A DNA stretch of 48,604 nucleotides from a virus: positions 1 through 48,604 of IMG/VR virus record IMGVR_UViG_3300047318_000447. The stretch is one strand, 5' to 3'. The notes beneath the pieces are model-generated. The model saw nothing but the letters and a program-made list of their open reading frames with translations. It ran no database searches and had not been told where the DNA came from. The position numbers and the translations under genes were made by a program. The stretch's first letter is position 1; each line of letters starts with the position of its first letter. Positions 11,124 to 48,534 of the stretch are shown here, one piece after another.

Positions 11124-11972
11124 ATGGCCATCAAGCGGTTCAAGCCGGAATTCTGGAGCGCCAAGCTCCTCGTCGGCCTGCGCAAGTCCCTCGTCTACGC
11201 CGGGCCCGGCATCGTCAACCGCGACTACGAGGGCGACATCAGCCAGGCCGGCGACACCGTCCGCATCACCTCGATCTCCCGCCCGACCATCGGCAACTAC
11301 GGCCCGGGCGTGACCATCGTCCCGGAGGAGCTGACCGACGCGCAGCGCACCCTCGTCGTCGACCAGCAGAAGTACTGGGCGTTCAAGGTCGACGACGTCG
11401 ACGCGCGCCAGGCTGCGGGCAACGTCATGCCGCAGGCGATCGACGAGGCCGGCTACGGCCTGTCCGACGTCATGGACCAGTACACCGCCAGCCTCTACAC
11501 CCAGGCGTCCGCCGCCAACCAGCTCGGCACCATCGCGGTGCCCGTTGCGAACCCGGGCTACTTCTACGAGAAGATCCTCGTCCCGCTGAAGGTCAAGCTC
11601 GACGAGGCCAACGTCCCCTCCCAGGGCCGCTGGTGCATCATCCCGTCCTGGCTCGAGGGTCGGGCCCTGCTCGACGACCGTTTCATCTCCGCCGAGAAGT
11701 CCGGCACCACCAACGCTCTCCTCAACGGGTTCGTGGGCCGCGCCGCGGGCTTCGACCTGATGATGAGCAACAACTGCCCGAACCCGACCGGCGACGACTA
11801 CGTCGTCATGGCCGGCAACAACACGGCGATCTCTTTCGCGGAGCAGATCAACAAGACCGAGGCCTACCGCCCCGAGTCCTCGTTCTCCGACGCCGTCAAG
11901 GGCCTGTGCGTGTACGGCGCCAAGGTCATCCGCCCCGACGCGCTGGCCACCGCCATCGCCTCCCAGACCTGA
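11124..11972 (+). CDS. Major capsid (coat) protein, P22-type
   Basis: A 282-residue protein, ATG behind GAGAGGAA. It matches the pattern of the P22 coat-like family of actinophages: N-terminal FKPEFWSAKLLVGLRKSLVYAGP, then NRDYEGDI and GDTVRITSISRPTI strands, VDDVDARQA, and a central W-C-I-I-P-S-W motif before the C-terminal A-domain-like strands. It uses the HK97 fold to form the icosahedral shell and lies in canonical position after the scaffold. It has no propeptide of the HK97 type. Confidence 0.85.
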   Translation: MAIKRFKPEFWSAKLLVGLRKSLVYAGPGIVNRDYEGDISQAGDTVRITSISRPTIGNYGPGVTIVPEELTDAQRTLVVDQQKYWAFKVDDVDARQAAGNVMPQAIDEAGYGLSDVMDQYTASLYTQASAANQLGTIAVPVANPGYFYEKILVPLKVKLDEANVPSQGRWCIIPSWLEGRALLDDRFISAEKSGTTNALLNGFVGRAAGFDLMMSNNCPNPTGDDYVVMAGNNTAISFAEQINKTEAYRPESSFSDAVKGLCVYGAKVIRPDALATAIASQT

Positions 11973-26164: not shown

Positions 26165-26944
26165 CTACGCCCGGTACACCAGCGACCCGCGATCCCCCCG
26201 CACCACCGTCCGCTCCGCATGCACCGGACGCCCGTCCTCACCCAGGAACAGTCGGGTCACCTCGAGGACCGGCGCAGCCGTACCCCCGCCGAGCAGGTCC
26301 CCCTCTTCCACCGTCGCCGGCCGCGCCACCACCTCTTCCTCCACCTCGCGGATCTCCACGCCCAGTTCCGCCATCCGCTCCCGCACGCTGCGCCCGGCGA
26401 GGGCGCCGTCCTCGGGCAGCATCACCGGGCTCTGGCCGACGATCGTGTACGGCTCCCAGCACGTTGTGAGGCGCACCAGTGCTCCGGTGGACCGGAACTG
26501 GTAGGCCGTCTCCACCACCCGCTCCCCGGGCTCGATCCGCAGCAGCCACGCCAGCGTTCGGTCCGCCAGGATCGTCTGGCTCCGGCATGCCCACTCGCCC
26601 AGGCGTCCGGCGGGGCGTTCCTGCTCGCGTAGCGGCACCACCTGCGCTCGGCCGGCCTCGGTGTCGACCCGGACGATGCGATGGCGCACCGTGCGGCGCC
26701 GAACGAACGTCCCGGCGCCCTGGTGGGCCTCGAGTAGGCCCTCGGCGATCAGGATTCCGCGCGCTTTGTGCAGGACGCTGTCGGAGGACTTGTACCAGGC
26801 GCAGAGCTCCTTGTGGGTAGGGATGCGTTCACCGGGCAGCCACTCGCGTGCTTCGACGATCCGCCGGCGCAGGTCGGTAGCGATCTCCACGTACTTCGGG
26901 GTGGTCGTGCGCTCGATCGGCACTCGTGCCCGCCCCTCTGTCAT
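26165..26944 (-). CDS. GntR-family regulator with UTRA domain
   Basis: A 259-residue protein from ATG 26944 (a GTG at 26950 is possible). Residues 17-82 are the GntR winged helix: YVEIATDLRRRIVEAREWLPGERI, HKELCAWYKSS, ARGILIAEGLLE, then GAGTFV. Residues about 105-255 match the UTRA ligand-binding fold of HutC-type regulators, ending in ERTVVRGDRGSLVY. Such proteins bind a small effector and repress nearby genes. A dyad lies upstream at 26963. The gene is transcribed away from the neighbouring ATP-binding gene. No clear Shine-Dalgarno is visible. Confidence 0.85.
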   Translation of the reverse strand: MTEGRARVPIERTTTPKYVEIATDLRRRIVEAREWLPGERIPTHKELCAWYKSSDSVLHKARGILIAEGLLEAHQGAGTFVRRRTVRHRIVRVDTEAGRAQVVPLREQERPAGRLGEWACRSQTILADRTLAWLLRIEPGERVVETAYQFRSTGALVRLTTCWEPYTIVGQSPVMLPEDGALAGRSVRERMAELGVEIREVEEEVVARPATVEEGDLLGGGTAAPVLEVTRLFLGEDGRPVHAERTVVRGDRGSLVYRA

Positions 26945-27075: not shown

Positions 27076-27474
27076 GTGGACACGTCGAGCCTCGACGTTA
27101 CCCGGACGTTCGACAGCGTTCCGCGGTCCGCCCGTGACGTACGGGAGTTGGTGCGCCTTTGGCTTGCCGTCACCTGGGTCGACGTCCCACAGGAGCGCGT
27201 CGACGACGCGGTCCTCGCCGCATCAGAGTTGGTAGCGAACGCTCTCCGGCACGGTGGCGACTCCATCACGGTGCGCCTGATCCGCAGCGCACGAGGGTGT
27301 CGTATCGAAGTGTTCGACTCGGGCCTGTCGACCTGTTCGCCGCCGGCCGAGCCCGGTCGGCGGCATGCCGAGGGGCAGCCTTTGGCCCTGGGCATCGCTG
27401 CTGCCCTGGGGCCGCTGGGGCAGGTCTTGGACGCTCGAGGAACAACCCTGTGGGTCGACCTGACCTGGCGGTAG
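27076..27474 (+). CDS. ATP-binding protein, anti-sigma (RsbW/SpoIIAB)-like
   Basis: A 132-residue protein, GTG at 27076 behind GGGGAGAG. It has the HATPase_c landmarks: N-box ELVANALRHG at 51-60, G1 box DSG at 81-83, and a C-terminal GTTLWVDLTW strand. The G2 segment (GQPLALGIAAALG) is altered from the usual G-x-G-L, so binding may be weak. In Streptomyces such proteins act as anti-sigma kinases or as orphan regulators paired with nearby transcription factors. Its position beside a GntR gene points to a host-like regulatory cargo carried by the phage. Confidence 0.75.
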   Translation: MDTSSLDVTRTFDSVPRSARDVRELVRLWLAVTWVDVPQERVDDAVLAASELVANALRHGGDSITVRLIRSARGCRIEVFDSGLSTCSPPAEPGRRHAEGQPLALGIAAALGPLGQVLDARGTTLWVDLTWR

Positions 27475-30707: not shown

Positions 30708-30728
30708 CGCATAACGTTCACTTATGCG
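30708..30728. promoter_or_regulatory. 21-bp perfect dyad CGCATAA-N7-TTATGCG
   Basis: 7-bp arms with a 7-bp spacer, 15 bp before the -35 of the promoter for 30781 and 108 bp before the divergent gene at 30600. It is the only strong dyad in this gap and lies where a repressor or recombination directionality factor would be expected to act. The similar half-site GTATAAC lies at 30684-30690. Confidence 0.6.
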
Positions 30729-37707: not shown

Positions 37708-38274
37708 CTACTCCAGGGTGTAGGCGGTGAGGATGGCGGTGTACCGGTCGTGGGCGTCGCTGTGGGGTGCGCCGAGGTTGTCGAGGGTCTGCAGGGCGGT
37801 GCGGGCGGCGGCGGTGATGGCGGTGCGGGTGGCCCAGGTGGGGTCGGTGACGGGGATGGTGCCGGCTCGGGCGCATTCGGCGACGTAGGCGTCGACGCTC
37901 TGGATGGTGGCGTGGGCGGCGCGGTGTCCGGTGGCGGCCTGGTAGTACATGGCGATGCGGCGGCGGCCGCGTTGGTCGAGGAGGTGGGACCAGAGGTCGT
38001 GGTCGGAGGCGCGGCGGGTCCAGCCTGCGGGGAGGGTGGCGGTGCGGAAGAGCGGGTCGCGGGGGTCGATGGGGCCGAGGATGAGGCCGAGGGCGCGGTA
38101 GTCGGCTTCGCGGCCGTCGAGGTCGGCGGGCAGGCGGTTGGAGTGGACGAGCTGGCGTTGGCCGGCCTTGTCCTGGGCGGCTGCTTCGGCGGCTACGGCG
38201 CCGGGGCCCATGGTGTCGGCGAGTAGGAGGAGGGTGGCGGTGGGGCCGCTGCCGGTTTCCAGCGGGTCGCGCAT
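37708..38274 (-). CDS. Hypothetical protein, first gene of leftward operon, 188 aa
   Basis: ATG 38274 behind CAGGAG. The internal block GLILGPIDPRDPLFRTATLP, W-T-R-R-A-S-D-H-D-L-W-S-H, and RRRIAMYYQAATGHRAAHAT is a pattern found in many phage genomes without assigned function. A compact, mostly helical domain follows. The candidate leftward promoter lies upstream at 38425-38453. Likely an early gene product. Confidence 0.6.
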   Translation of the reverse strand: MRDPLETGSGPTATLLLLADTMGPGAVAAEAAAQDKAGQRQLVHSNRLPADLDGREADYRALGLILGPIDPRDPLFRTATLPAGWTRRASDHDLWSHLLDQRGRRRIAMYYQAATGHRAAHATIQSVDAYVAECARAGTIPVTDPTWATRTAITAAARTALQTLDNLGAPHSDAHDRYTAILTAYTLE

Positions 38275-38304: not shown

Positions 38305-38380
38305 TTCCGTTTCCCCGGAACTTCGGTCTATACTGGCCACCTCGTTGGACCGTCACCAAATACTGGCGTCGGTCCTTTTT
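38305..38380 (+). promoter_or_regulatory. Promoter-attenuator cassette, copy A
   Basis: TTCCG-N6-CGGAA dyad (38305-38320), -35 TTCCGT (38305-38310), -10 TATACT (38329-38334), 18-nt spacing; start near 38341. About 6 nt later begins an intrinsic terminator: GGACCG (38347-38352) pairs CGGTCC (38370-38375), then TTTTT. A transcript of about 40 nt should result unless terminated RNA polymerase is released from the hairpin. A collinear copy lies at 44288-44363. On the minus strand the same -10 area also reads TATAGA. Confidence 0.6.
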
Positions 38381-38424: not shown

Positions 38425-38453
38425 ACCATAGACCGAATCTATTGCACATGCAA
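38425..38453 (-). promoter_or_regulatory. Candidate leftward promoter TTGCAT-N17-TATGGT
   Basis: On the minus strand TTGCAT (38453-38448) and TATGGT (38430-38425) are 17 nt apart, a good vegetative match, with start near 38418. It would drive the leftward operon that begins at 38274. The -35 and spacer lie inside operator 1, so bound repressor should block it. Confidence 0.5.
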
Positions 38454-38461
38454 TAGATTCG
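38434..38461. promoter_or_regulatory. Operator 1: 28-bp dyad with 13-bp perfect arms
   Basis: The arm CGAATCTATTGCA (38434-38446) is perfectly inverted at 38449-38461, with CA between. It is distinctly AT-richer than the surroundings and covers the leftward promoter. Its core recurs at 38516-38527. Confidence 0.75.
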
Positions 38462-38515
38462 TGTCAGAGTGGCTCCACCGGGGCCTGCGGCCCCATCCGG
38501 CATGCGGGCTATCAC

Positions 38516-38527
38516 TTGCATGTGCAA
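38516..38527. promoter_or_regulatory. Operator 2: TTGCATGTGCAA core, related to operator 1
   Basis: The 16-nt string TTGCATGTGCAATAGA (38516-38531) is shared with the reverse complement of operator 1. Centres of the two operators are 74 bp apart, close to seven helical turns, so two dimers could be joined on one DNA face. It lies 22-100 bp before the two possible starts of the next gene. Confidence 0.7.
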
Positions 38528-38626
38528 TAGAGAACCGGAGACACTGACGTGGACAGGACCCGAACGCGCCCCCCAGGAAGGCCCCACCCCTCGGAGCGGC
38601 GCGCACCGCCGAATCGAGGACACCGA

Positions 38627-39160
38627 GTGCCACAGCCCGAGCGAGCGAAGAACCCGAGCCAGCGCGACCAGGTCCGGGAGGCCATCGCCGCCCTGCGCGC
38701 CGGCACCAGCCCGCGCCCCGACCTCGCCGACGCCGTCGACAAGTTCTTCACCGCGGTGACTTCGCCCAGGCAGAGCGAGACGGTCCCCATGTACCTCCCC
38801 AAGGAGACCTGGCGCCGGGCCGAGGAGAAGGCGACGCAGGAGGGCCGCAAGCGGGCCAACGTGATCGAAGAGGGGTACACCGAGTTCCTCGCCGGCCGCT
38901 GGCTCCCCACGCGCTGGCCCCGGGGCCGCGTCACCGACGCCGAGGCGGGCCCCAGGATCACCGCCAGCATCAGGGTCAAGACCGACCGACTGCGCGAGCT
39001 GGAGGAGTACGCAGCCGCCAACCCCGCGCTAATCGGCTGGGAGCCCTCGCCGGCGCAGGTCGCCGCTGCATGGATCAAGCAGTACGTCGACGCGGAGCCC
39101 GTCGCCCCTCGAAGCAAAAGCCGCCAGGCTTCCAGGCCCGGCAAGTCCCAGGCCGAGTAG
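38627..39160 (+). CDS. Candidate tandem ribbon-helix-helix regulator
   Basis: From GTG 38627 (GAGGA upstream; a GTG at 38549 would add 26 low-complexity residues) the protein has 177 residues. Two segments have strand-helix-helix form: VPMYLPKETWRRAEEKATQE and GYTEFLAGRW, then ITASIRVKTDRLRELEEYAA with QVAAAWIKQYVD, as expected of two RHH units in one chain. It lies directly downstream of the twin operators. A role as their binder and as a repressor of the leftward and its own genes is inferred. Other DNA-binding or partition-type proteins are possible. Confidence 0.5.
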   Translation: MPQPERAKNPSQRDQVREAIAALRAGTSPRPDLADAVDKFFTAVTSPRQSETVPMYLPKETWRRAEEKATQEGRKRANVIEEGYTEFLAGRWLPTRWPRGRVTDAEAGPRITASIRVKTDRLRELEEYAAANPALIGWEPSPAQVAAAWIKQYVDAEPVAPRSKSRQASRPGKSQAE

Positions 39161-43219: not shown

Positions 43220-43542
43220 GTTACGACATCTGCCTGGACATCGACACGGGCGCCGGAGAGACGGTGACGGCCCTGGAGGTCGGCAACTACACGAGCAACG
43301 TGGCGTGGATGTGGTCCCAGGCGCTGGGCCACCCACTGCGTGAGCTGGACGGCCGTGGCGCAGCGGACACCGTTGACGTCCTGACGGCCGCCGTGGCCGC
43401 GATGCGGGAGCGGGCGCAGGAGTTCCGGGCCCAGGAACCGGAGAACGGCTGGGGCGACTACCAGGGCGCCCTCGGGTACCTGGAGCGCCTGCTCGCCGGG
43501 TGCCAAGCGCACCCGGCGACGACGATTCGGATCTCCAGCTGA
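43216..43542 (+). CDS. Hypothetical protein, 108 aa
   Basis: GTG overlapping the previous stop, with AGGAGGGG upstream. The pattern SYDICLDIDTGAGETVTALE, VGNYTSNVAWMWSQALG and WGDYQGALGYLERLLAGC, with paired Trp and Tyr, is found in other actinobacterial and phage proteins annotated only as hypothetical. Probably globular alpha/beta. The next ATG overlaps its stop. Confidence 0.55.
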   Translation: MSYDICLDIDTGAGETVTALEVGNYTSNVAWMWSQALGHPLRELDGRGAADTVDVLTAAVAAMRERAQEFRAQEPENGWGDYQGALGYLERLLAGCQAHPATTIRISS

Positions 43543-44282
43543 TGGCCGGCCGGCAGGCATCCGACCACGACGTCGCCGCCGAGTCGGGGGACGCACCGGC
43601 GTGCGGGTGCTGCGAACGGGCACTGCACCGGGAGGAGCTCGGCGCCGGACGGTCGGTGTGCCTGGTGTGCGAGCGGGAGGTCGCCCACCGCCTCACCGAC
43701 GTGGAGCAGCTGTGGAAGCTGCTGCCGGCGTGCACCGCGAAGGGCAGTCCACTGTCGGACACCGGGGCCGGCTCGGCGAGCACCGGCTCGCAGGCGCCCG
43801 GCAACCTCGCCGTGTTCAGCCTCCTGGCGGGGGACGTGCCGCGCCGGCTGCAGGTGCACGAGAGGGCGTGGCGCCTCATACGGGGCACCCCCGCCCCGGC
43901 CGATCAGCCTGCGGGGCAGGACCGGCAACTGCGGGACGTCCTGGGCTACCTGCGGATCAACCTCGACTGGGCGTGCCGCACCCCGGCCGCGGACGTGAAG
44001 ACGCTGCGCGGGGATGTGCGGCACCTCGCCGCGGAGATGATGTCCGCCATCACCGGGGAGCGCGACCGGCGGGTGACGGTGCCCTACCCGTGCCCGCTGC
44101 CGGCCCTCGGCTTCGCGGACGACGACGAGAGGGCGCCCGCCTGCGGGGCGCTGCTGCGGATGTACCCCGCCGAGCGGGAGATCCGTTGCACCGGCTGCAA
44201 GCGGCGAGTACCCAGGCACCACTGGCACCGGATCGGGCTGCTCGTCGGCTCGATCACGCTGGAGGGACAGGCGGCCGCGTAG
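43542..44282 (+). CDS. Hypothetical multi-zinc protein, 246 aa
   Basis: ATG 43542 overlapping the preceding stop (TGATG). It has a zinc ribbon near the N-terminus (CGCCERALHREELG ... CLVCEREVA) and a second at the C-terminus (C-P-L ... CGALLRMYPAEREIRCTGCKR followed by HHWH). The middle is helical with LRINLDWACR and LAAEMMSAITGERDR. Two ribbon ends flanking a helical body suggest a nucleic-acid-binding protein. It closes the coupled run; cassette copy B follows immediately. Confidence 0.55.
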   Translation: MAGRQASDHDVAAESGDAPACGCCERALHREELGAGRSVCLVCEREVAHRLTDVEQLWKLLPACTAKGSPLSDTGAGSASTGSQAPGNLAVFSLLAGDVPRRLQVHERAWRLIRGTPAPADQPAGQDRQLRDVLGYLRINLDWACRTPAADVKTLRGDVRHLAAEMMSAITGERDRRVTVPYPCPLPALGFADDDERAPACGALLRMYPAEREIRCTGCKRRVPRHHWHRIGLLVGSITLEGQAAA

Positions 44283-44287
44283 AAGGG

Positions 44288-44364
44288 TTCCGCGACCCCG
44301 GAACTTTCGTCTATGCTGGCCGCTCCGACGGGCCATCACCACTTCACGGTGACGGCCCTTTTTT
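44288..44364 (+). promoter_or_regulatory. Promoter-attenuator cassette, copy B
   Basis: TTCCG-N6-CGGAA dyad (44288-44303), -35 TTCCGC (44288-44293), -10 TATGCT (44312-44317), 18-nt spacing. The terminator starts 6 nt after the predicted start: GGGCC (44330-44334) pairs GGCCC (44354-44358) and TCACC (44336-44340) pairs GGTGA (44348-44352), followed by six T. It is collinear with copy A, about 55 of 76 positions identical by my count, and a base pair has changed from A-T to G-C. Confidence 0.65.
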
Positions 44365-44393: not shown

Positions 44394-44648
44394 GTGGACA
44401 CGGTCGTACACGAGGGCGAGGCGGTCGAACTGCTGCCGGGCCCCGGCGAGGGGCAGGTGCCGGCGGGGCTCGGGGGCCTGCTGTGGGAGCACGGGCCCGT
44501 CGCGGACGGGCAGGCGATGGGTGCGCCGCGGTGCGGGTCCTGCTCGGAGCGTGCGGGGGTGGCGGTGCCGTGGCCGTGCGAGCCGGTGGGTGAGGGGGCT
44601 GTCGTGACGGTGAAGCCGTGGGGGTGGACGTTTCGTCAACGCGACTGA
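44394..44648 (+). CDS. Small protein downstream of attenuator B, 84 aa
   Basis: GTG behind GAGGAG, 30 nt after the terminator T-run. Acidic, Gly/Pro-rich N-terminal part (GEAVELLPGPGEGQVPAG), then CGSCSERAGVAVPWPCE with three Cys, and a beta-like end (VVTVKPWGWTF). It is the only gene between cassette B and the long intergenic region before the replication gene. Function unknown. Confidence 0.5.
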   Translation: MDTVVHEGEAVELLPGPGEGQVPAGLGGLLWEHGPVADGQAMGAPRCGSCSERAGVAVPWPCEPVGEGAVVTVKPWGWTFRQRD

Positions 44649-45033
44649 GGGGCCCCCGCCGGCGGTTGCGGGGCTGGTCGGTGCGGCGCGAGCACCCCGA
44701 TGATCTAGTCCCTGACATTACTTTGACATGGGATGTCAAACGCTCGACATGCCGATGCCGGAGAAGGGGGCCGGGAGACGATAGGGTCGGGTTGGCTTCC
44801 GCCCTGACCGGACGAGGCGTCAACCCTGCGCGCCGAGTGCGGCAAAGGGGGCTGTGCCCGCACCCGCTCAGCGGGTAGTCTGACGCCAGCAAGCTTCCAT
44901 CACAGTCGGTGAAGCGTTGCGCAACAAGACAACTGGACATGTAGAAGGGGCCCTGACTCCCCCTCGCGGCGCGCCAACGCCTTAGTGCGAGGAGAACGGA
45001 CCCCATTCGACAACCGAGGAAAGCGGTCGTCTG
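44649..45033 (+). other. Intergenic region with operator-like repeats, no convincing gene
   Basis: Holds a hairpin just after the stop at 44648 (GCCCC...GGGGC), the GACAT repeat group at 44714-44750, a perfect short hairpin ACCCGCT-C-AGCGGGT (44862-44876), and TTGCGCAA near 44917. A possible promoter TTGCGC-N17-TGTAGA lies before 44950. No open frame with normal codon use and a start signal was found. Confidence 0.5.
44714..44750. promoter_or_regulatory. GACAT repeat array with a 19-bp dyad
   Basis: GACAT occurs at 44714, 44725 and 44746 and inverted (ATGTC) at 44733. The central pair forms TTTGACAT-GGG-ATGTCAAA (44722-44740), and direct copies are 11 and 21 bp apart, about one and two helical turns. 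TTGACA is also a perfect -35 but no good -10 follows at 17 nt. Likely a protein-binding array or operator. Confidence 0.55.
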
Positions 45034-45512: not shown

Positions 45513-46820
45513 ATGCAGCACACCGTGCCGCGCGTCGACTCCGACGTGCCCTCCGGCACCCCTTTCAACCCGAATGTGGCCGCCGACACCCCCTCCGCGC
45601 GCCCCCGAAGCGCCGTCCGGCGCCCCTGGACGCCCGACCCGAGCCAGACCGTCGCCCGCACGACCTCCCGCCACAGCGGCCCTCGGGCCTGGCGCCGCGC
45701 AGCAGAGCGGGCCCTGGAGGCCGGCCTGGTCCCGGGTGCGAACGCCGTCACCACCGTGGTCCTCGAGGACCTCGCCCGCCGCATGGACTACAGCACGGGC
45801 CACGTCCGGTACTGCCTCGCCGACACGATGGCCTCCACCGACCTCTCCCGCTCGACCGTCACCAAGCACATCAGACTGCTGCGGTCGGCCGGCTGGCTGG
45901 CCTGGGCGGAGCACGGCTCGCTGCGCAACGTCCTGCGGGGCCTGGGCCGGCCGGGGTACGCGCCCACGGCGACGGTGTACGCGGCGACGATCCCGCCGGC
46001 GTTCGACACCTGGGCGGGCAACCGGCTCGGCGGCGTCGGATACTCCGCCCGGGTCGTCGGAGCGACGGCGCGGGGCCGGGAGCAGCGGGTCGCGGAGGCT
46101 GTGGATAACTCGTCGCGGAAGGCTGTGGACAACCCGGCTAAACGATCTTCGCGGACCCCTTCCCTTAGGGTGGTTAAGGAGGAGGGTCAGGTTCAGGTAG
46201 TAGGTGGTTCTTCTACCGCGAAGCGGCAGCGAAAGACGACCATCCTCGGCAGCATTCCCACCGCCGACGCCGTCGCCCGGGCCCGCCGGCTCGCCGCCGA
46301 GATCCGACCGCTCGTCAACTGGCTCCAGAAGGCCAGCCGCCGACAGCTGTCCTGGGTGCTCCTCGACCTGGTGCTGATGGGCTGGGACGACCAGCGGATC
46401 CTGAACTGGGTGCGCGCCGCGACCCCCTACAGCCGCTCCGGTCAGGGCGTGTGGCGGCCCCGCTTCCCCCACCGGGTCCTGGCCGCGGCCCTCCTCGGTG
46501 AGGACCAGGACGCGCGGCGCATCGCCGACCTGGAGGCCCTGACCACCGCGGCCGTCGCACCGAAGGACCACGAGGCGTGGGGTGAGGTCTGGCGGACCTG
46601 GCAGGAGCAGCTCGCCGACAGCACCGAACCGGAGCGCACGGACGAGGACCGGTGCCAGGCCCGGGCCTACGTCACCAGCGGCTCCAGCCGGGCCTGCGGA
46701 ACCCTCGCCGAGGTCACCGGGCACATCGCCGTGTACGGCCTCGACGACGCCCTCGACCTGTACGGCACCCACCTCTGCTCCCTCGCGGAGCGCATGGACG
46801 CGATCGGAGCGTACGCATGA
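45513..46820 (+). CDS. Replication initiator-like protein with internal DnaA boxes
   Basis: A 435-residue protein, ATG behind GAGGAC. Residues about 70-135 form a winged helix (VVLEDLARRMDYSTGHVRY, STVTKHIRLLRSAGWLAW), the binding domain of phage and plasmid initiators. A low-complexity linker (190-250) contains the repeated AVDN motif encoded by the DnaA boxes. The C-terminal half is helical (RQLSWVLLDLVLMGW, RILNWVRAATPYS, HRVLAAALLGEDQD). The arrangement (binding domain, origin in the linker, helical partner domain) resembles lambda O. Replication initiation is inferred; related proteins occur in Streptomyces phages. Confidence 0.7.
   Translation: MQHTVPRVDSDVPSGTPFNPNVAADTPSARPRSAVRRPWTPDPSQTVARTTSRHSGPRAWRRAAERALEAGLVPGANAVTTVVLEDLARRMDYSTGHVRYCLADTMASTDLSRSTVTKHIRLLRSAGWLAWAEHGSLRNVLRGLGRPGYAPTATVYAATIPPAFDTWAGNRLGGVGYSARVVGATARGREQRVAEAVDNSSRKAVDNPAKRSSRTPSLRVVKEEGQVQVVGGSSTAKRQRKTTILGSIPTADAVARARRLAAEIRPLVNWLQKASRRQLSWVLLDLVLMGWDDQRILNWVRAATPYSRSGQGVWRPRFPHRVLAAALLGEDQDARRIADLEALTTAAVAPKDHEAWGEVWRTWQEQLADSTEPERTDEDRCQARAYVTSGSSRACGTLAEVTGHIAVYGLDDALDLYGTHLCSLAERMDAIGAYA
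46091..46134 (+). other. Candidate replication origin: two DnaA boxes in a tandem repeat
   Basis: TGTGGATAA (46100-46108) is the exact complement of TTATCCACA, and TGTGGACAA (46124-46132) of TTGTCCACA, the Streptomyces DnaA box. Both lie in two near copies of a 24-bp unit (CGCGGAGGCTGTGGATAACT and following). The next 80 bp (46139-46225) are the least GC-rich of the gene, a possible unwinding element. Confidence 0.65.
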
Positions 46821-47179
46821 CCGCCCGCCGCACCGCCACCAGCATCACCGACGACGAACTCGCCGCCCTGTACGACGAGCGGGACCTGCTCATCCACGAG
46901 CGGGACCTCCTGCGCCGGCTGACGGCCCGGCACGCAGACGTCCTCGCGAACTTCGCAGCCTTCGCCTTCGGTCGGGGCGACAGCCGCCGCCGGCTCCTGC
47001 GGCAGAAGTGGCTTACCGCCGACCGTGTCCTCGCCTCCCTGTCGGGCCCGGCCCAGGGCTGTGACTGCGCGGGCACCCTGCTGCGGCACATGTCGGAATG
47101 CGGGCACCTCGTGACCTGCCCCAACACGTGGACGACCCGCGACCGACGGCGGCACTACGGAAGGCAGGCCGACCGATGA
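46817..47179 (+). CDS. Hypothetical protein with coiled coil and Cys cluster, 120 aa
   Basis: ATG overlaps the initiator stop (ATGA). The N-terminus is a coiled-coil helix (DDELAALYDERDLLIHERDL, LRRLTARHADVLANF). The C-terminal half has CDCAGTLLRHMSECGHLVTC, a metal-type Cys/His cluster. Co-translated with initiator and DciA-like gene, so it may belong to the replication complex. No family recognised. Confidence 0.5.
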   Translation: MTARRTATSITDDELAALYDERDLLIHERDLLRRLTARHADVLANFAAFAFGRGDSRRRLLRQKWLTADRVLASLSGPAQGCDCAGTLLRHMSECGHLVTCPNTWTTRDRRRHYGRQADR

Positions 47180-47988
47180 GCACTCCCTCCGGCATGGACC
47201 TCGCCCGCCAGGCCCTCGCGGCGGCGAAGGCCGCCGCCCGCAAGAACGGCACCGGGCCGGGCGCCAAACCCAAGCCCAAGCGTCTCGTCTCCGTGAAGCG
47301 CGGCACCGGCGGCCGGGACCCGATGAGCCTCGGGACGGCCCTGGGCGCCGTCGTCGTCGAGAACGGATGGAACCTCGAGGCGAAGGCCGGCACCGTCGCC
47401 GACCGCTGGCAGGAGATCGCCCCCGCGGAACTCATCGACGTCGTGCGCCCGGGGCGCTTCGACGCCAAGCGCCGGGTGCTCGACCTGCACCCGGCCAACG
47501 GCACCGTCGCCACCCGGCTGCGCCTCACCACCCGGGATATCGTGGCGCGCATCAACGCGGTCGTCGGCGCGGGCACCGTCGTCGCCATCAAGGTCCTGCC
47601 CCCGGGTGCCGGCCCGCACCGCGGTGCGCCGCCGCCGCCAGCGAACCCTCACAACCCGCCGGCCGCGCCCCGTTCGGCGCCGTCCGGGGCGCCGCCGAAC
47701 GAGGCCCTCGTCGCAGCCCGCCGCAAGGCGAAGGAGCAGCGGGAGGCCCGGGACGCGGCGGCCGCCGCACGGGCCGAGGCGCTGCGCTCCCCGTGGGCGC
47801 ACCTGTGCCCGATCGCCCGGGAGCCGGAGGAGCAGTTCCTCGAGGGCATCCGAGCCCGGGCGGAGACCGAGGAGCAGGCGCGTCTCGCTTCGCACGACCG
47901 GGCCCTCGCTGTCGCCCGCCAGCAACGGCGCGCCCCTATCGCCCCCGCAGAGACCCAGCCGTCCGTCGCCGTCCTGCGCGCCAGCTGA
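47176..47988 (+). CDS. DciA/DUF721-like protein, candidate helicase loader
   Basis: A 270-residue protein, ATG coupled by ATGA. Residues about 50-150 match DciA: DPMSLGTALGAVVVENGWNL, VADRWQEIAPAELIDVVRPG, RRVLDLHPANGTVATRLRLT, then INAVVGAGTVVAIKVLPPG. In many bacteria DciA delivers the replicative helicase DnaB. The basic N-terminus and a helical Ala/Arg-rich tail of about 120 residues, with a C-terminal helix, are additional. Location after an initiator with DnaA boxes indicates that the phage carries its own loader or a competitor of the host one. Confidence 0.65.
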   Translation: MSTPSGMDLARQALAAAKAAARKNGTGPGAKPKPKRLVSVKRGTGGRDPMSLGTALGAVVVENGWNLEAKAGTVADRWQEIAPAELIDVVRPGRFDAKRRVLDLHPANGTVATRLRLTTRDIVARINAVVGAGTVVAIKVLPPGAGPHRGAPPPPANPHNPPAAPRSAPSGAPPNEALVAARRKAKEQREARDAAAAARAEALRSPWAHLCPIAREPEEQFLEGIRARAETEEQARLASHDRALAVARQQRRAPIAPAETQPSVAVLRAS

Positions 47989-48000
47989 CCGGAGCCCCTG

Positions 48001-48534
48001 ATGACCGACCCGTTCCGGCTGCTCGTCACCTCCTCCCGCGACCTGACCGACCGGGCCCAGTTCTGTCGAGCCCTGGAGACCATCGCGCACACCCACGGCT
48101 TCCACCGCCTCGTCGTCGTCCACGGCGCCTGCCCCACCGGCGGCGACCAGTTCGCGTCGCACTGGGCGCTCGCCGCAGCCGACGTCGGCGTCCTCGAGGA
48201 GCCGCACCCGGCCGACTGGGACCTGTGCGCGCCCGACTGCCCGACGGACGCGCACCGGCGCGCGAAGCGCCCCGGCGACACCGCCCACCCCGGCCGGCTC
48301 GACACCTACTGCCCGGGCGCCGGGCCCCGCCGCAACGCCCACATGATCAGCCTCGGCGCCGGCCTGTGTCTCGCCGCACCACTCGGCCGGTCCTACGGCA
48401 CCCGCGGCTGCATGCGCCTCGCGACTGCCGCCGGGATCCCCACCATCGAGCCTCGGGATGTTCTTCGCGGCGGTCTGTCAGAGCTCGGCGCCACTCTGGG
48501 CCGAAGACGAACCGCCGCGCCCGGCGCGGCCTGA
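48001..48534 (+). CDS. SLOG-family nucleotide-binding protein (DUF2493/YspA-like)
   Basis: A 177-residue protein whose ATG lies 12 nt after the DciA-like stop. It has the SLOG Rossmann pattern: LLVTSSRDLTDRAQFCRALE, VVVHGACPTGGDQFA with the Gly-rich loop, HPADWDL, PRRNAHMISLGAGLC and a last RSYGTRGCMRLATAAGIPTIE. A Cys-containing insert lies between the second and third blocks. Related proteins bind nucleotides or NAD-type ligands and appear in phages and defence loci, mostly without known activity. C-terminal tail is basic. Confidence 0.75.
   Translation: MTDPFRLLVTSSRDLTDRAQFCRALETIAHTHGFHRLVVVHGACPTGGDQFASHWALAAADVGVLEEPHPADWDLCAPDCPTDAHRRAKRPGDTAHPGRLDTYCPGAGPRRNAHMISLGAGLCLAAPLGRSYGTRGCMRLATAAGIPTIEPRDVLRGGLSELGATLGRRRTAAPGAA

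Follow-up and report, generated by a model that had tools for sequence, protein, structure and literature searches.

Why would a phage genome carry, twice, a predicted promoter that runs straight into an intrinsic terminator? This arrangement is found at positions 38305-38380 (cassette A) and 44288-44363 (cassette B) of an IMG/VR virus record of 48,604 nucleotides, which was analyzed at its full length and is called the window here. The record carries terminase, portal, capsid, tape measure and integrase genes, and its portal protein is 63% identical to those of Streptomyces phages phiSASD1 and Dubu. For the annealing protein and a replication-type protein, the nearest phage relatives are those of Streptomyces phage ZL12. 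Judged by its genes, the early region belongs to the ZL12/pCQ4 phage-plasmid type, which differs from that of the portal relatives. A gene for a GntR/UTRA regulator (26165-26923, - strand) adjoins one with a histidine-kinase-like ATPase domain (27076-27474, + strand) between the structural genes and the integrase.

Two cassettes built from the same predicted parts

The preliminary description reported that the two 76-bp segments align without gaps and agree at about 55 positions, and both the coordinates and the count (55 of 76) proved exact on recount by direct alignment. No other pair of same-strand 76-mers in the 48.6-kb window scores as high, the runner-up diagonal reaching 51. Each segment consists, in order, of a TTCCGT or TTCCGC hexamer, an 18-nt spacer, TATACT or TATGCT, a 12-nt leader (7 of 12 positions identical) and a 29-nt hairpin that ends in T5 or T6, as had been described. 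The predicted parts are as follows, where L038, L039 and L040 are contigs of related phages described below.

Cassette A
38305-38310, + strand: -35-like hexamer TTCCGT (weak), assigned by sequence; TTCCG is kept in A, B, L038 and L039, not in L040
38311-38328, + strand: 18-nt spacer with the conserved CCCCGGAACTT, a candidate regulator site; 14 of 18 positions are identical in A and B, with CCCCGGAACTT unbroken, and a matching block occurs in L038, L039 and L040
38329-38334, + strand: -10 element TATACT, predicted start ~38341; assigned by the rarity of TATNNT and its invariant T, A and final T (n=5)
38347-38380, + strand: intrinsic terminator, with the hairpin at 38347-38375 and T5 at 38376-38380; predicted fold -16.0 kcal/mol, z -3.9 against shuffles; both-strand scan
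Cassette B
44288-44293, + strand: -35-like hexamer TTCCGC, assigned by sequence and the A/B alignment
44294-44311, + strand: spacer with CCCCGGAACTT, assigned by the A/B alignment
44312-44317, + strand: -10 element TATGCT, predicted start ~44324; assigned by the A/B alignment and the rarity of TATNNT
44330-44364, + strand: intrinsic terminator, with the hairpin at 44330-44358 and T6 at 44359-44364; predicted fold -19.0 kcal/mol, z -5.5 against shuffles; both-strand scan

The hexamer TTCCGY is a poor match to a sigma-70 -35 element and was missed by a generic promoter scan. TATNNT is depleted in the window, with nine occurrences on both strands versus 22.5 expected from dinucleotide shuffles. 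Because the motif is this rare, the cassette -10 elements make up two of only four occurrences on the plus strand. The two hairpins, confirmed by coordinates and by folding, are also the only compact intergenic hairpins directly before five or more T residues in the record, according to a fold-based scan of both strands. Inspection by eye of the first transcribed bases of the cassettes showed no recognizable sigma-dependent pause element, and an Rfam 15 covariance-model search of the window returned no matches at the gathering score. These predicted parts support the original observation that a promoter running straight into an intrinsic terminator is duplicated in this phage. The cassettes are ordinary in their parts and unusual as a duplicated stand-alone unit.

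Other hairpins occur elsewhere in the window. At 405-502, before the early structural genes, another promoter-like site (TTGACC-16-TACGAT) leads into a hairpin (GCCCCGCAGGCCC...GCGGGGC) that has no more than TTT behind it; the arrangement is unrelated in sequence to A and B. A terminator-like hairpin (CGCATAACGTTCACTTATGCG), A+T-rich for this genome, lies at 30708-30728 upstream of the integrase region.

A homologous family in related phages

A strict search with the 76-bp pattern returned no other viral contig, and a looser version gave 21 chance-like matches, mostly in apparent coding DNA. Four matches were obtained in GTDB genomes, none of them in Actinomycetota, and pattern and BLAST searches of phages and plasmids with the window's own 76-bp version yielded nothing convincing. 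Relatives were reached only by way of the replication-type protein (gene 45513-46820), which led to contigs L038, L039 and L040; a looser family pattern gave no contigs beyond two already known. As far as could be searched, the cassette is previously undescribed. The three contigs have in common the gene order of a 38549-like gene, a 43500-like gene and the replication protein, to which L038 adds the annealing protein and WhiB, and L039 adds WhiB.

The occurrence of homologous cassettes with covarying stems in related phages had been set beforehand as one half of a refuting test. The homologues were found, as evident by one copy at A's place in each of the three contigs, just upstream of the ortholog of gene 38549.

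L038, 3954-4028: cassette upstream of gene 4247
L039, 3383-3458: cassette upstream of gene 3734
L040, 4657-4740: cassette upstream of gene 4868

Local alignments of the leader regions score above all 300 shuffles for A with B, L038 and L039, for L038 with L039, L040 and B, and for L039 with L040 and B; the pairs A/L040 and B/L040 are not significant against 300 shuffles. An intrinsic terminator is predicted in all five cassettes, whose hairpins have z-scores from -3.8 to -5.5. A covariance model built on A, B and the L038 and L039 copies, the recovery of which is expected, finds two full-length copies in the window and one each in L038 and L039, and matches L040 weakly at the exact expected place (12.7 bits, E 0.36). 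It returned no further convincing full-length copy from the whole records of L038-L040, ZL12, pCQ3 and pCQ4, and no convincing full-length match from the portal relatives Dubu and phiSASD1. The cassettes form a homologous family with alignable promoter and terminator at the same syntenic place, strong for L038 and L039, and for L040 weak by the model and significant pairwise against L038 and L039. On this comparative evidence the predicted promoter-terminator unit is real and inherited. Because the relatives carry one copy at A's place and the model finds no further copy, cassette A is the inherited one and B an extra copy in the window's phage, as far as these records reach.

Conservation is distributed unevenly within the unit. 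The first T, the A and the final T of the -10 element (T-A-N-N-N-T) are invariant in all five cassettes, with TATAAT in L039, as are some stem positions and the T-run. A spacer motif,.CC..GA..TT, is kept across the family in an alignment made by eye (CCCCGGAACTT in A, GCCGCGAGGTT in L038, GCCGGGAGATT in L040). Promoter part and hairpin are conserved to the same degree, and the 5′ tail or leader of the RNA and the hairpin loop are variable. The dyad TTCCG-N6-CGGAA, which had been listed among the shared parts of the cassettes, indeed has two exact copies in the window, both within the cassettes. It is absent from L038, L039 and L040, and we rejected it both as a conserved element and as the operator of the family.

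The stems give a mixed answer. The A-T pair of cassette A that is a G-C pair in B is a real compensatory change, but a further four stem positions are paired in one cassette and unpaired in the other. Among four sequences, double changes are found at 2 of 11 pairs, a number equaled in 54 of 500 shuffles. Therefore, the covariation, which had been offered as an argument for selected RNA structure, is weak by itself, and over four copies it is only suggestive.

Surroundings of the two cassettes

The genes upstream of the cassette differ between relatives: in L038 and L039 the cassette has a co-directional gene upstream, and in the window (A) and L040 its flanking genes diverge. The features around A and B are listed here.

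38438-38457, palindromic: perfect palindrome TCTATTGCA-CA-TGCAATAGA, operator-like site 1, downstream of cassette A; counterparts at the same place in L038, L039 and L040
38512-38531, palindromic: operator-like site, a second, inverted copy (2 mismatches), just upstream of gene 38549
38425-38453, - strand: divergent promoter-like TTGCAT-17-TATGGT overlapping operator site 1, directed toward gene 37708-38274; seen in the sequence, function putative
38549-39160, + strand: first gene beyond cassette A, predicted tandem ribbon-helix-helix DNA-binding protein (synteny, AlphaFold, Foldseek); its ortholog follows the cassette in three relatives
43500-44282, + strand: gene for a protein with Cys pairs directly upstream of cassette B, a speculative regulator candidate common to all four cassette phages
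44394-44648, + strand: small open reading frame directly beyond cassette B; no homologue found

The first gene beyond A, initially given as starting at 38627, more likely starts at 38549. The AlphaFold model of its product contains two ribbon-helix-helix units in one chain, and its best PDB neighbors by Foldseek are F-plasmid relaxosome chains (probability ~1.0, E 0.01), presumably TraY. Because of this tandem model and these neighbors, the protein is predicted to be a natural palindrome binder, and the palindromes look like a more suitable target for it than the cassette does. Weak relatives of the protein occur in pCQ3, pCQ4 and other Streptomyces plasmids of 85-93 kb.

Two inverted copies of the palindrome lie between the terminator and the 38549 gene in all four cassette phages. 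In L038, L039 and L040, a promoter-like site (TTR...-17/18-TANNNT) overlaps the first of them; the corresponding forward site at A in the window is weaker and does not match this pattern. In the relatives, transcription of the operon beyond A is thus probably possible without the cassette, and this weakens the earlier claim that full expression of the genes beyond A needs antitermination. The stretch 38425-38531, with the palindrome, its inverted copy and the divergent promoter-like site beside gene 38549-39160, has the look of an immunity-like switch region.

In five related phage-plasmids this gene region is present and the cassette is missing. A promoter-like site such as that of the cassette-bearing relatives is present in the S. 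europaeiscabiei element and ZL12, pCQ3 and pCQ4 gave no pattern match, and the S. albidoflavus plasmid falls outside this comparison. The gene order of pCQ3 and pCQ4 (ribbon-helix-helix-type gene, annealing protein, WhiB) is the same, and by eye the early-operon leaders of pCQ4 and ZL12 also contain a palindrome. However, no compact hairpin-T terminator or cassette was found in the leaders of pCQ3, pCQ4 and ZL12.

At B, there is nothing between the terminator and the next open reading frame, where no promoter-like site was seen, and for this reason either read-through or a short RNA is possible. Across nine related elements, the upstream gene 43500 is found together with the cassette, no homologue having been detected in the five cassette-free relatives (ZL12, pCQ3, pCQ4 and two other plasmids). 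Because the four carriers of both are close relatives, gene 43500 serves only as a lead. As a candidate antiterminator it was not taken further than that: the model of its product (pLDDT 70) has no significant match in the PDB and thus no informative fold match.

Downstream of B, a dyad (TTTGACAT-GGG-ATGTCAAA, 44722-44740) is a possible operator for the replication region, and genes for a DciA-like protein (47176-47988) and a YspA/SLOG-family protein (48001-48534) lie near the right end. Streptomyces phages Keanu and Hiyaa (L052 ~11270-11335 and L053 ~11190-11250) have a promoter-like TTGTCG-18-TACCAT/TACCCT followed by a hairpin and TTTT, directly before genes 87/92 and beside a distant homologue of gene 43500.

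Possible roles and comparison with known systems

We consider it a genuine possibility, somewhat short of an even chance, that the cassette is a stand-alone unit yielding an RNA of ~40 nt, and that a phage factor loading at the spacer, in the manner of lambda Q and AlpA, allows read-through of its terminator. A and B would be paralogues: compact, inherited transcription units, each combining a weak -35 with a conserved element between -35 and -10 and with a terminator starting a few bases after the predicted start. Because the terminator begins so close to that start, RNA polymerase would by default release the ~40-nt RNA. A phage- or prophage-encoded factor would recognize the spacer element and load on the starting polymerase, which would then pass the terminator. 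Transcription would enter the early operon at A even with the operon's own promoter held by a palindrome-binding repressor, and at B it would enter the genes beyond.

What the sequence and the comparisons above support is the unit with its family, location and predicted parts; the spacer-binding factor and the read-through we infer. The points in favor are the top-scoring A/B pair, the position of the sole two compact terminators behind such promoters, the syntenic homologues, and the retention of the -10 element, the terminator and the spacer motif. Against these stand the apparent promoter of the relatives' own operon beyond A and the five relatives that lack the cassette. No protein of the Q or AlpA family was recognized among the proteins scanned; unrelated Q proteins exist.

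The main rival to antitermination is that the cassettes are tiny RNA genes, whose terminated ~40-nt product acts alone while the genes beyond use their own promoters. This would suit the three relatives of A, where a separate promoter-like site over the operator, past the terminator, precedes the downstream gene, and it would suit a unit that stands alone in surroundings as different as those described above. However, there is no shared seed, because the single-stranded 5′ tail and the loop are the least conserved parts; conservation resides in the promoter and terminator, there is no Rfam match, and we judge this role to be on the unlikely side. RNA antisense to the leader of the divergent gene was rejected as a general role, as no divergent gene exists in L038 or L039 or at B.

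It is also conceivable, if improbable, that the RNA is waste and that the cassette acts in cis, with initiation and early termination loading or displacing polymerase or repressor by the operator or divergent promoter, and so tuning the switch. In favor of this, 57 bases lie between the end of cassette A and operator site 1, and transcription of the short RNA would run head-on toward the divergent promoter-like site at 38425-38453. Against it, no such operator adjoins B and the upstream gene in L038 and L039 is co-directional rather than divergent. That these are plain insulating terminators between operons, with a fortuitous promoter part, seems very unlikely to us. Termination at the end of an operon is natural at B (after gene 43500-44282) and in L038 and L039 because a co-directional gene lies directly upstream, but window A and L040 have no such gene, the rare TATNNT recurs at the same place before the hairpin, and the promoter part is conserved like the hairpin.

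A more ambitious form of the spacer-loaded antitermination proposal is that a phage-encoded antiterminator with no sequence relationship to Q or AlpA opens twin gates, through which early and replication transcription bypass repressor-controlled promoters; this we think unlikely. If true, the twin gates would constitute a new compact antitermination module of actinophages. We are not aware that processive antitermination or attenuation of early genes has been shown for Streptomyces phages of this type, and our literature searches turned up no case. The 76-base unit offers a defined test object, with two natural copies, a candidate binding element and cassette-free relatives as controls.

The early region of phiC31 contains promoters, terminators and conserved inverted repeats that are repressor operators. 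It resembles the window as a Streptomyces phage with repeated intergenic regulatory elements, but its repeats are repressor operators, and the early region of the window is of the ZL12/pCQ4 type. In comparison with lambda, the cassette leader is much shorter. Lambda Q provides a precedent for an antiterminator site in the -10/-35 spacer with a terminator downstream (PMC6606751). Lambda-type late promoters (PMC6606751, PMC7171158) share with the cassettes a promoter, a spacer element, a short leader and an intrinsic terminator. However, the cassettes are located at the early and replication regions rather than before late genes, and no pause element or Q homologue was recognized. For GafZ, a similar element between -10 and -35 has been proposed, again with a terminator downstream (PMC11150451). 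The two target promoters of AlpA have the antiterminator site between -10 and -35 and intrinsic terminators downstream (PMC7969949). The window differs from that system in that no AlpA-like protein was recognized, the terminator starts no more than ~10 nt past the predicted start and, in the relatives, the unit at A's place is followed by another promoter-like site with an operator. If they act in this manner at all, the cassettes would work like the AlpA, Q and GafZ promoters, albeit with no cognate protein recognized; what they share with the AlpA-controlled promoters of Pseudomonas aeruginosa is a pair of promoters, a common -35/-10 element and one or more terminators before the first gene (PMC7969949, PMC9371919).
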